Shown here piece after piece: positions 22,487-35,033 of a stretch of 35,693 bases of DNA. Position numbers and translations under genes: made by a program. Source of the DNA: Leptolyngbyaceae cyanobacterium SM2_5_2 (GTDB taxonomy: Bacteria > Cyanobacteriota > Cyanobacteriia > Phormidesmidales > Phormidesmidaceae). Under the pieces are notes generated by a model. That model saw only the letters and a program-made list of their open reading frames with translations, was not told the DNA's origin and did no database searches. The DNA is taken from assembly GCA_012031045.1 (NCBI GenBank), contig JAAUUR010000002.1, positions 1-35,693 on the forward strand, written 5' to 3'. Position 1 is the first letter of the stretch, and the number at the start of each line of letters is the position of its first letter.

Positions 22487-22709
22487 AGGGCGGGTTGGCT
22501 AGGGTTGATTCCAGGGTATACGATAGAACCCGCCTACGGTAGAACGGGGGTAAAAATCTCTTAAACCCACGGCCCATTGCGGTGGAATCGCCGGGCTGAA
22601 AGATAACGGTGAAGTTGAGCGGCGGCCAGTAATCCTGAAACGAAGTGCGAAGATTTGATCCCGTCCGCTCCATGAGCGCTGTGAAAATAACTCTCCCTTC
22701 TACAATGCC

Positions 22710-30089: not shown

Positions 30090-30382
30090 TTACTCCAGCC
30101 GCAGGATCTTATCCATCACCACCATCCACTGATGCGGCGCTTCGGCACTTGGGCGGCGCTCGCGGCCAGAGTCAGCCTCAGGGGTGGGGACGGGTATCGG
30201 CTCGCACCCGTCGTTGGGGTCGGCATAGCCGTAGCGATGCAGAATTTTAATGACCCGGTCTAACCCCCGCAAGCTGACGTAGAGCACATGGCGTACTCGT
30301 TCGGGTTGGGGTTGCGGTCTGGATGACGAGGCAGGTGGAAGATTGGACGCGCCGCTGGCATCCGATTCGGGATATTGGAACA
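30090..30382 (-). CDS. Hypothetical protein
   Basis: MFQYPESDASG...ERVRHVLYVSLRGLDRVIKILHRYGYADPNDGCEPIPVPTPEADS...HQWMVVMDKILRLE; plausible composition, no confident family. Confidence 0.55.
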
Positions 30383-30410
30383 TGTCATTCGTTTTCCTTG
30401 CTAAGTGGAT

Positions 30411-30488
30411 AGACCCACCCCTACACCTCCGAGGAGGGGACGACAAACCTCCCCTCTCGGAGGGGTGCCCGGAGGGCGGGGGTGGGTG
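30411..30488. repeat. REP/BIME-like palindromic repeat
   Basis: CCACCCCTACACCTCCGAGGAGGGG-acgacaaa-CCTCCCCTCTCGGAGGGGTGcccggagggcgGGGGTGG. Confidence 0.6.
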
Positions 30489-30892
30489 AGGAAAAGAACG
30501 CGAAAACCCCAGCCACCCACGCAGTTAACGTGCAAGGTTGGGGGCTGGGGTACCATAAACCCTAGCCACGCAATCTGCTACAGAGATTTGCGGGGTTAGC
30601 TGTTCGTGGGTGTTCCTAGCACCTACGGACAGCGCCGAGATTTTCGAGCCCTGTGGACATCGCCGCCCGGTATGAACGGCTTAGTGTGAAAGAATACTGG
30701 TACAGACGCTTGGTGTCAAGCCAATCTGGAACTTTTTTGCAGATACGTCTGTAGTCTGGTAGCAAATGCCACCCAGGTCAGCCATCACAGGTAGGGTGCC
30801 ATCATCGCCCCGCGCACTAAAACTGATGTACAAAGATCGATGCTATCGATAGCACATAATTACGTAGTCGTATTCTAAATTTTCTCAGAAGG

Positions 30893-30973
30893 TTTCCGTA
30901 TAACTCCCCGCTGACGGTGGATTATACGGAAATCGTCTGTATAACTACCTTATAGAGGGCAGTTATACGGAAA
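30893..30973. repeat. Composite palindrome with perfect 13 bp terminal inverted repeats and internal copies
   Basis: TTTCCGTATAACT (30893-30905), ATTATACGGAAA (30921-30932), TGTATAACT (30939-30947), AGTTATACGGAAA (30961-30973). Confidence 0.75.
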
Positions 30974-31038
30974 GCATTGGCATAATAAGTTGCCAAGCTG
31001 CTTAGGGAATTGATGGGGCTGCCGTTTAAAGATATTCT

Positions 31039-31773
31039 GTGAGTGCGATGCTTAGAGAGATTGATGAAGAGATTTGGGTTGCCGAACAACCTTTACGGTA
31101 TCTCGGACTTAGTGTTGGGACAAGAATGACAGTCGTTCGGCTAGAAAATTGCGAATTAGCTGTTATTTCACCAATTCAAGCCAGTGATGCAATTGTGAGT
31201 CAACTCAGCCAACTTGGAACAGTCAAGCATATTATTGCTCCCAATCTTTATCACTATTTATTTGCAGCCAATTTCAAATCACTTTACCCATAGGCAACGT
31301 TTTGGGCTGCACCAGGTTTGGAAGTTAGAAAAACAGAATTACCGATCGACCAAATCATCGGGAGTGATGCAAACGATCTATGGAGTAGGATTGAATATGT
31401 ATTTTTGACGGATTCAAGACGCTTGGGTTAAACGGTTTTTGAATCACTTAATGAATGTGTATTCTTCCATGCTGTGAATCGCACTCTGATATTGACGGAT
31501 ACTGCCTTTCATTTTGATGAGAGTTTTCCAATACTCACACAATTAGCTACCAGGATGCTTGGAGGCTATAAAAGCTTGAGTCCATCGCTATTGGAGCGAG
31601 TTGCAACAACGGAAAAGGAGAAAGTAAGAAAGTCGGTTGAGCGGGTTTTAGGCTGGGACTTTGAGCGAGTGATTATGGCTCACGGCAGTATCATAGAGCA
31701 GAATGGGAAAGAGAAGTTCAAGCAGGGATACGAGCAATTTTTAGGGAAAGCGGTGAATATCGCTGCTGATTGA
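31039..31773 (+). pseudogene. DUF4336 protein gene with two in-frame stops (TAG 31291, TAA 31429)
   Basis: One reading frame throughout: MLREIDEEIWVAEQPLRYLGLSVGTRMTVVRL...HYLFAANFKSLYP*ATFWAAPGLEVRKTELPIDQIIG...RRLG*TVFESLNECVFFHAVNRTLILTDTAFHFD... Confidence 0.75.
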
Positions 31774-31776
31774 GCT

Positions 31777-31999
31777 ATGAGGTACGTATTTCATCCTGAA
31801 GCGCTGAATGAATACGCTGAAGCAGTTCAATACTACACAGAGCAGAGAGTTGAGGTTGCTCAAGCGTTCGTAAACGCGATTGAGGATACAGTCAATGCGC
31901 TCACGGATGATTTGATGTTGGATTACGACGACCAAGGAAAGAATTGTTGCCATTACAATTGATAACTATTCTAAAAATGTGGATGTCGTTAATCTTTAA
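31777..31999 (+). pseudogene. Chimeric remnant: RelE/ParE-type toxin N-terminus joined to a DUF2283 C-terminus
   Basis: MRYVFHPEALNEYAEAVQYYTEQRVEVAQAFVNAIEDTV then LMLDYDDQGKIVAITIDNYSKNVDVVNL* after removing one A near 31940. Confidence 0.6.
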
Positions 32000-32094
32000 G
32001 CCCTTGATTTGCCGTTGTTAAGTGTGTAACTAGACACATGCTAGAAAATGTTAGGAGAAACATTATTTGGGAGGCTATGTAGCCAAATCCGGCG

Positions 32095-32284
32095 GCATAA
32101 TAAATCGTTGCAGCGACGGAATAAAGATAATTGGTTAGGATACAGAGGTTACTAGTACTGGAAGACAGAAGGATGAAGGCGGAATGATGAAAGAGGATTA
32201 CAGGGCGCATAAGGGTTTCCGCCTTAGCAAAGTGAGTTATCTCCACCGCAGAGTACTAGCCGTCGCTGAAGGGGAACGTTAGGC
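32095..32284 (+). other. Candidate degenerate attC (unusually long)
   Basis: GCATAAT (32095) ... CAGCGACGG (32111-32119) ... CCGTCGCTG (32260-32268) ... GTTAGGC (32278-32284). Confidence 0.4.
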
Positions 32285-32359
32285 TGCTTGAAGTCGTCGG
32301 TGAGGTAGTACCTTAAGATTATTAGTAAGGGTCCTAGTATTGCGAAGGAGGACAATCTC

Positions 32360-32881
32360 ATGCAGTTGAGGAGAAATAGTATTTCGCAACGGATAAGCTA
32401 TTTGGTGTTTCCTGGGGGCGCTATTATTCTCTCTATCTTAATGGGCGCATGGGTATTTATTCTGGGTGTCTCAAGTTATCAAGCTGCGGCTAGCTTCAAA
32501 GACAAGGCTCTTTCAACAGCTGGAATAATAATTGGCACTAGAACTGAGTCAGGTGGTGGTTCTATTGGGGGTTCTCTTCCACCTCGTTATGTCTCTACTG
32601 TCCGTTTTGAAACTGAAAAAGGAAAAATAGTGCAGTTCACAGTTGACGGCATTTGCCAAGCTACATCATTTAGTCTACACCTATGCAACGGGAGAAAGGT
32701 GCAGGTCTTATACGCTTCTGACAATCCCGAATTGGCAATGATTAAGAGAGGACTTAGTCCTTTAGATAAAGCGAGAAGTAATATTGGATTGGGAATATTC
32801 TTGATACTTAGCGGAGTAATGACATTCATCGTTGCTCCAACGGAGTATGGCGGACGATTCGGTCCGACTCAGCAGAACTGA
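32360..32881 (+). CDS. DUF3592-like membrane protein, putative integron cassette cargo
   Basis: 173 aa, N- and C-terminal TM segments, central YVSTVRFETEKGKIVQFTVDG...GRKVQVLYASDNPELAMI. Confidence 0.75.
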   Translation: MQLRRNSISQRISYLVFPGGAIILSILMGAWVFILGVSSYQAAASFKDKALSTAGIIIGTRTESGGGSIGGSLPPRYVSTVRFETEKGKIVQFTVDGICQATSFSLHLCNGRKVQVLYASDNPELAMIKRGLSPLDKARSNIGLGIFLILSGVMTFIVAPTEYGGRFGPTQQN

Positions 32882-32913
32882 TATTTTTGAACACTTCGGG
32901 ACGAGCGGCAACC

Positions 32914-32999
32914 GCCCAACACTGCGTTGGAACGGCGGAGCAGGAGGGCTCGGTTATGAGGCAAAGGTTGCTTGCCGCCGCCCAAGCGAACCGTTAGGC
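32914..32999 (+). other. Integron attC recombination site
   Basis: R'' GCCCAAC (32914-32920) and R' GTTAGGC (32993-32999) bracket an imperfect palindrome CGTTGGAACGGCGG...CCGCCGCCCAAGCG; 33 bp after the DUF3592 stop. Confidence 0.7.
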
Positions 33000-33025
33000 G
33001 CAACGCGGAGCTTTGGAGATCCGAT

Positions 33026-33775
33026 ATGGAGTTCACAGGAAAAGTCGCATTGATAACGGGTGCTGGAACCGGCAACGGGGAGGCGATAGCAGAGCGTCTC
33101 TTCGCTGGTGGAGCGTCGGTCGGGTTGGTTAGTCGTCGCCTTGATACGGTGCAAACGGTCTGTCAGAGAATTGACCCGGAAGGTATGCGGACGTTGGCTG
33201 TTGAAGCAGATGTACGTGATCCAGAAGCCATGGAGTCCGCAGTCAGGCGTGTTGTCGAGCGCTTTGCGAAGCTGGATCTGGCTGTAAACAACGCTGGCAT
33301 CACTGGCTCGGCTGGAGTACCGGTGCAGGACATAGGAGTGGAGATATGGCATGAGGTAATCGAGACCGACCTGACAGGTATCTTCTACTCACTGAAATAC
33401 GAGATACCGGCGATGCTTGCGAATGGGTCTGGTGCGATCGTCAATATGTCGTCTGCCAATGGCTTGGTCGGCCTGCCGGGAATGGCGGCGTATACGGCGG
33501 CCAAACACGGAATCATTGGTCTGACTCGTTCTGCTGCGCTAGAGTTGGCCGAGTCTAATATCCGCGTATGTTCAGTGGCCCCTGGGTATGTCGCAACCCC
33601 ACGGATAATGAATTCTGGCAAAGAAGTCACAGACTGGATGGCTAGCGTACATCCCATGAAGCGCCTTGCGACTCGGGAAGAAGTAGCGGATTTGGTCGCA
33701 TACCTATTGAGTGAGCGCGCGGCCTTTATAACTGGCAGTGTTTACTCTATCGATGGCGGGTATACGGCACAGTAG
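33026..33775 (+). CDS. SDR-family oxidoreductase (classical)
   Basis: GKVALITGAGTGNGEAIAERL, NNAGITG, YTAAKHG catalytic YxxxK, SIDGGYTAQ C-terminus. Confidence 0.95.
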   Translation: MEFTGKVALITGAGTGNGEAIAERLFAGGASVGLVSRRLDTVQTVCQRIDPEGMRTLAVEADVRDPEAMESAVRRVVERFAKLDLAVNNAGITGSAGVPVQDIGVEIWHEVIETDLTGIFYSLKYEIPAMLANGSGAIVNMSSANGLVGLPGMAAYTAAKHGIIGLTRSAALELAESNIRVCSVAPGYVATPRIMNSGKEVTDWMASVHPMKRLATREEVADLVAYLLSERAAFITGSVYSIDGGYTAQ

Positions 33776-33883
33776 TGGCATCGCACATAACAGTCTCGAT
33801 TGCCCCGGCAGCTACCCATCCCAAGCTGTCACGGCAATCTATCAACATATTTGGCTATATTCAACTCATTTGCCTGGGCATTA

Positions 33884-33915
33884 AAAAGCCAGAGGCATAG
33901 CTACCTCTGGCTTTT
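33884..33915. terminator. Bidirectional rho-independent terminator between SDR and psbA
   Basis: AAAAGCCAGAGG-catagcta-CCTCTGGCTTTT perfect 12 bp stem. Confidence 0.85.
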
Positions 33916-33948
33916 GCAAGGCTCTCCTAATTCTGCTTTCTTTGAGGT

Positions 33949-35033
33949 TTAGGCTTGAGTTGCCAGCCCAGAGTCTTGATAGGCGACTGGGATAGCAGGC
34001 GCACTGGCCAAGTCTAGGGGGAAATTGTGGGCATTGCGTTCGTGCATGACCTCAAAACCTAAATTGGCTCGGTTAACTACATCTGCCCAACTGGGCAAAA
34101 TGCGCCCCTGGGAATCCAAAATGGAGTGGTTGAAGTTAAAGCCATTCAGATTAAAGGCCATAGTGCTAATGCCCAGGGCCACAAACCAAATGCAAACCAC
34201 TGGCCAGGCGGCTAAGAAAAAGTGCAACCAGCGAGAGTTATTAAAGCTAGCGTACTGAAAAATTAGCCGACCAAAGTACCCGTGGGCCGCCAAAATGTTG
34301 TAGGTTTCTTCTTCCTGGCCAAACTTGTAGCCCGCATTTTGAGATTGGCTATCGGTGGTTTCTCGAATCAAACTTGAGGTCACCAGGGAGCCATGCATAG
34401 CACAGAATAAAGAGCCACCCAACACCCCCGCTACCCCCAACATGTGGAAGGGATGCATGAGAATATTGTGCTCAGCCTGGAAGACAAACATAAAGTTAAA
34501 GGTGCCGCTAATGCCCATCGGCAGGCCATCAGAAAAGCTACCCTGACCGATAGGATAAATTAAAAAAACCGAGGTAGTGGCCGCTACGGGGGCACTGTAG
34601 GCCACACAAATCCACGGGCGCATCCCTAAGCGGTAGCTGAGTTCCCACTCGCGGCCCATATAACACAGTAGGGCTGGAATGTAGTGGAAAGCAATCATTT
34701 GATAGGGGCCACCGTTATAGAGCCATTCATCCAGAGTGGCAGCCTCCCAAATTGGGTAAAAGTGGAGCCCAATGGCATTAGACGATGGCACTACGGCGGC
34801 GGTAATAATGTTGTTACCGTAAGCAAGGAACCCGATAACGGCTCACGAATGCCATCAATATCGACAGGTGGTGCCGCAATAAAAGCAAGCACAAAAACGA
34901 CGGTGGAAACGCCTAGCAGAGGAATCATTAACACGCCAAACCAGCCTACATACAGCCGGTTTTCAGTGCTGGTGACCCATTGGCAGAATTGCTCCCAAAA
35001 ATTGGTTTCTTGACGTTGAATAGTTGTAGTCAT
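33949..35033 (-). CDS. psbA: Photosystem II D1 protein (divergent form), apparent frameshift near 34821
   Basis: ORFs 34791-35033 and 33949-34791 join if one T is restored ([25 protein letters not shown]); [42 protein letters not shown]. Confidence 0.97.

Follow-up and report, generated by a model that had tools for sequence, protein, structure and literature searches.

A gene cassette with attC beside a probable integron platform that has lost its integrase gene, in a genus of cyanobacteria with many such platforms

The window, i.e. the whole 35,693-nt stretch of Leptolyngbyaceae cyanobacterium SM2_5_2 DNA that was analysed (contig C148), carries the following features between positions 30090 and 33775, with the basis of each assignment given in brackets.

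30090–30383, minus strand: small ORF of 97 aa, the constant platform gene (family 3′ of intI elsewhere)
30482–30710, minus strand: conserved leader, its RNA read towards the small ORF (intI adjacency, fold in 31 copies)
30711–30814, no strand: repeat extension (common to the intI-less copies on C374, C514, C393, C56 and C19 of the same genome)
30815–30821, no strand: putative point of the missing intI (repeat homology stops at 30814; homology to sequence upstream of intI starts at 30822)
30822–30992, plus strand: attI/intI-promoter-like region with palindromic units (matches to L144 and L067)
31048–31773, plus strand: interrupted DUF4336 gene, a pseudogene (ORF list, congener comparison)
31778–31959, plus strand: fragment of a ParE-like toxin, joined to the DUF4336 end (Pfam score under the cut-off)
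32254–32284, plus strand: 3′ half of an attC, ending in GTTAGGC (nucleotide match to an attC in L062)
32279–32993, plus strand: gene cassette of 715 bp (sequence reading and the G/TT rule)
32360–32881, plus strand: cassette ORF of 173 aa, weakly DUF3592-like (ORF list, profile search)
32914–32999, plus strand: complete attC (fold and covariance model R1)
33026–33775, plus strand: SDR-family oxidoreductase gene, probably a second cassette without its own attC (profile search, R1)

A first-pass annotation, made from the sequence alone, had proposed an integron cassette with an attC in this cyanobacterium, and the ORF, the 86-bp element at 32914–32999 and the GTTAGGC positions on which it relied all lie where it had placed them. 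The first base of the element is 33 bp past the ORF stop, its ends are GCCCAAC (32914–32920) and GTTAGGC (32993–32999), and a further GTTAGGC (32278–32284) precedes the ORF. The bottom strand folds into a long imperfect hairpin with paired ends, as expected for an attC, with a fold energy that by itself is not unusual (z −1.14; 30 of 200 shuffles equally good). Consensus ends by themselves are weak evidence for an attC, because complementary RYYYAAC/GTTRRRY pairs 70–110 bp apart are expected 0.8 times per random sequence of the window's size, or 0.07 times with a stem added. A plain genome scan for these motifs was dropped, having given 140 matches versus 209 in the reversed control, and, because a folding-based scanner (also given up) missed true attC sites, we built a covariance model, R1, from 35 sites adjoining cyanobacterial intI (alignment A1). 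These were picked by hand from 58 candidates upstream of intI (a control of roughly double the length gave 12), excluding the own-genome site, attI-like palindromes, non-cyanobacterial sites and sites of odd length; the training set thus held none from the genome under study and one from a congener (L017).

This model provided the decisive test, matching 32914–32999 with 51.4 bits and E-values of 3.5e-7 in the whole genome, 1.2e-8 over 22 loci and 2.8e-10 in an unfiltered search of 30500–34500. These data clearly identify the element as a genuine attC, and the proposed cassette has come through the covariance-model search, in which the annotation had named a missing hit as evidence against itself. 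A chance palindrome or an assembly artefact is a highly improbable explanation: the frequency of consensus ends just given and the draft state of the genome (531 contigs, 84.2% complete, 5.95% contaminated) would allow for it, but the whole-genome E-value and the occurrence of similar attC sites in intI loci (e.g. L081, L038 and L064) speak against it.

Crossover in attC takes place at G/TT, and by this rule the attC terminates a 715-bp cassette. A search of 386 genomes of the phylum with the encoded protein gave, in addition to the protein itself, three weak relatives, and of the DUF3592 label that the protein had been given the weak likeness stands, whereas the score (20.1 bits to PF12158) is below the gathering cut-off of 25.3 bits. 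Upstream, 32254–32289 has 92% identity over 36 bp with an attC in locus L062, and R1 found no full attC around 32278 in 30500–34500; the GTTAGGC at 32278 terminates the 3′ half of a second attC whose left half is missing. This 4-kb segment holds, by R1, one complete attC and one half. The window's cassettes are private to the source genome, being absent from the 25 other genomes of the genus, where matches are limited to short SDR or attC stretches, so that the locus is not invariant among relatives, as the annotation had required of a real cassette. Genome-wide, R1 recognized 29 sites at E ≤ 0.01, the second match within the window being a weaker, attC-like site on the minus strand at 22601–22687, which scores 35.1 bits (E 0.001 over the full genome) and has no platform beside it.

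The annotation had reported no tyrosine recombinase in the window, which holds for intI, there being no match on C148, but intI does occur elsewhere in the genome. An intact ORF on contig C445 encodes a 324-aa IntI with 474.3 bits to TIGR02249 (the integron integrase model; cut-off 265), and the search for intI elsewhere that the annotation had recommended also recovered three decayed copies, on C126, C193 and C103. The decayed genes are frameshifted in L012 (5053–6026), 5′-truncated in L013 (5101–5442) and internally deleted in L014 (9667–9852). Since C445 also bears the cyanobacterial RNA Yfr1, it is not an obvious contaminant. The relatives of its IntI among the 80 matches listed are mostly from Leptolyngbyaceae and similar cyanobacteria, 66 of them being labelled cyanobacterial (L032, titled Gracilibacteria, is left in this count). 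The IntI proteins in L032, L065 (Poribacteria) and L069 (Ktedonobacter) are 67–72% identical to the cyanobacterial one, which could reflect either transfer or mis-binning. The annotation had overlooked both the C445 integrase and the rest of the platform, i.e. the small gene, the leader and the attI-like region.

The small ORF gave no match in Pfam, NCBIfam or PADLOC; its predicted structure has a mean pLDDT of 71.9 and a pTM of 0.47, and no convincing relative was found in the PDB (best E 0.19). Its family is nevertheless tied to integrons by position: a search of 80 intI loci, cyanobacterial and other, gave 14 hits, every one 1.3 kb or less 3′ of intI, and an HMM of the family found 13 loci, 13/13 adjoining intI (the distance limit over these searches being 1.3–1.5 kb). 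Of the 26 intI loci found in the genus 21 were fetched, and in 12 of these the leader lies 24–94 bp past the intI end. The leader is present in 21/26 genomes of the genus and 8/37 other genomes of the family, scored on up to 12 matches per genome, with 13 copies in the genome studied here. The predicted fold is retained in 99.2% of cells across 31 copies, and the covariation score of 0.158, reached by 0/500 shuffles, compares with 0.127 in shuffles and falls to 0.04–0.06 when the alignment is slid. Pairs changing on both sides number 4/54, which 38/500 shuffles reach, and further pair types are no higher than in shuffles (456/500), so the leader RNA is, on these predictions, likely to be structured. 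Rfam gave no match at the gathering score, and sub-threshold identities (c-di-AMP, 22.2 bits, in L013; others elsewhere) were rejected as inconsistent. By eye, a promoter-like TTGACA-17-TATTCT lies on the minus strand. At the left boundary of the platform we found no transposon end, because the copies diverge at the stop of the small ORF, with terminator-like sequences that differ by eye.

On the other side of the leader, 30822–30992 matches the L144 sequence that directly precedes intI (78% over 132 bp, E 2e-23) and the attI region upstream of intI in L067 (80% over 98 bp). Its 3′ core reads GTTGCC, so the GTTRRRY core is not intact and looks damaged. The 230-bp repeat (30482–30710) had been dropped as sole proof of a deleted intI, being a multicopy repeat of the genus, and the claim was taken up again because attI homology and intI adjacency supported it separately. 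With the leader on one side and intI-upstream-like sequence following it, intI appears to be missing between 30814 and 30822. In addition, the locus has been rearranged, because DUF4336, an ordinary chromosomal gene in congeners, lies between the attI-like region and the cassette. Within 31048–31959 the broken DUF4336 is joined at a short shared sequence to the ParE-like fragment, which is 95% identical over 128 bp to L103; in the congener locus L097 the DUF4336 gene adjoins a menB-like gene, as judged by eye.

Taken together, these features make it highly likely that intI has been lost from an integron platform here, and that the locus is a decayed copy of a dispersed and mostly integrase-less system; an integron with a lost intI is preferred to a stray attC because both the attI-like region and the usual neighbour gene of intI have been retained. 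Off-target insertion by an IntI acting from elsewhere, with the nearby leader and attI-like region a coincidence, would be in keeping with the intact IntI on another contig, with one of the origins of CALINs described in the available text of PMC8618304 (which also includes intI loss) and with the placement of attC sites in this genome, where 7/29 lie downstream of a leader on the same strand and 22/29 are not within 9 kb of one. We regard it as quite unlikely, however, given that the small gene and the attI-like region lie 1.3–2.2 kb upstream in the correct orientation and that this arrangement recurs many times in the genus.

With regard to published categories, in the portions of the cited papers available, a CALIN is two or more attC without an integrase by the IntegronFinder 2 default (PMC9024848) and a SALIN a single attC without one (PMC12690207). 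The locus has an attC ending its cassette, as a complete integron does, and lacks the intI that a complete integron has next to its array; with a single complete attC and one half in 30500–34500 and no intI on C148 it is a SALIN rather than a CALIN, so the annotation's view of it as integrase-less holds and its view of it as a cluster, strictly, does not. Like CALINs and SALINs, it has an attC-bearing cassette without an adjoining intI; unlike them, it keeps an attI-like region and an intI-flanking gene, and is one of many such platforms, with only one complete attC.

Platforms of this type are scattered through the genus, most of them without intI. Sequence like that upstream of intI was found in 18/27 intI-less platforms and in none of the control segments; for 13 of the matching platforms the opposite strand gives a match as well, since the units are palindromes. 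A larger set gave 43/86 intI-less copies versus 0/86 in the control (42/85 once the duplicate was removed, L105 and L224 being one place). All but one of the 26 genus genomes contain attC, including the ten with no intI match. In the two-contig genome G002, which has no intI at E ≤ 1e-20, there are 13 leaders and 16 attC, of which 12 lie within 9 kb downstream of a leader on the same strand (0.14 expected) and none within 9 kb on the opposite strand or the other side. In 60 further platform regions 25/26 attC were likewise downstream on the same strand. Counted as for G002, the figures were 4/14 in G023 and 2/17 in G003, with contig sizes partly rounded, and most attC of these two genomes and of the genome studied here are not near a leader.

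It could be argued that the small gene and leader form an element of their own, mobile or regulatory, that settles near integrons, so that its copies are not integron remnants, and both the 43/86 intI-less copies without a recognizable attI-like region and the 13 leader copies in a single genome would fit such an element. We consider this unlikely, since every member of the gene family found in the 80 intI loci lies beside intI, the leader lies within 94 bp of intI in 12 loci, and at 13 sites different species share a conserved left flank, which also argues against the platform copies being freshly mobile.

These 13 orthologous sites, defined by their left flanks, allowed the segments beside the leader to be compared between species. 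Among species pairs with both flanks conserved, 43/46 differ in the segment between, although some right blocks of 500–650 bp may be repeats instead of flanks; when the right block has to span 1 kb or more, 28/30 pairs differ. Similarity averages 0.99 at the leader, drops to 0.07 at 330–1000 bp and recovers to 0.47 at 3–3.5 kb (68 pairs selected by left flank, so left-side values are biased upwards). Thus the content of the segment varies between species while the flanks stay. We infer that the variable segments are cassettes changed by IntI. General recombination or other mobile elements acting at hotspots is a less probable source of this variation, but one with an appreciable chance of being right: 12/13 orthologous sets have no member with intI (the remaining set has intI in G010, a piece of it in G025 and none in G012), and the variable segments contain repeats other than attC, in multiple short blocks. 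Change by an integrase is favoured by the abrupt onset of change at the attI position and by the strand and side shared by 25/26 attC of the platform regions. The platform regions compared included no ortholog of the site in the window, and for this reason the loss of intI at that site is deduced from paralogs.

IntI inserts cassettes at attI via the folded bottom strand of attC. In the sequence of events that we propose, the small gene and its structured leader would mark the side where intI ended and the attI-like region the point of cassette insertion, intI having formerly lain between the two. A past integrase would have put cassettes in by recombining bottom-strand attC with attI, leaving the DUF4336 pseudogene, the ParE fragment, the half attC, one full cassette with attC and the SDR gene. 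Platforms may have spread before the species split and then lost intI repeatedly, their content having continued to change through an integrase elsewhere or before intI was lost. Action in trans by a distant integrase, here that of C445, on sites without intI is plausible, and the accessible part of PMC9668308 notes that mobilization in trans is possible for CALIN cassettes. With a damaged attI core and a left attC of which only half is present, the window's own copy probably no longer works as a landing site; we take it to be a relic, with a remaining attC that may still be usable. More tentatively, and as a possibility that we would not yet favour, the integron of this genus may consist of distributed, fixed and vertically inherited attI platforms, each marked by a structured leader RNA together with a small gene linked to integrons, mostly integrase-less and filled and emptied in trans.

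Descriptions of integrons place a single attI next to intI. Sedentary chromosomal integrons, as in Vibrio and Xanthomonas, combine an IntI-family integrase with attC cassettes in one long array. The present system is similarly chromosomal, with the same integrase family and attC cassettes, but has many short platforms over the genome instead. Cyanobacteria are among the integron-bearing phyla in the available text of PMC8618304, PMC2426708 and PMC8352920, and the IntI and attC here are of the same type; in those parts of published accounts that were available we found neither the multiplicity, nor the intI loss, nor the leader/small-gene marker. Nor did the open literature, subscription papers excluded, yield in its accessible portions any dispersed integrase-less attI platforms, which would be missed because the main detection program, as described in the available part of PMC9024848, does not detect attI outside class 1 and drops single attC by default. 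Were an integrase to serve the platforms in trans, a single genome could operate numerous cassette landing sites independently of one another; the orthologous sites make cassette turnover between species directly measurable.

Further along the window, a psbA-like gene (33949–35033, minus strand) is split into two frames near 34791, as a pseudogene or through a sequencing error.
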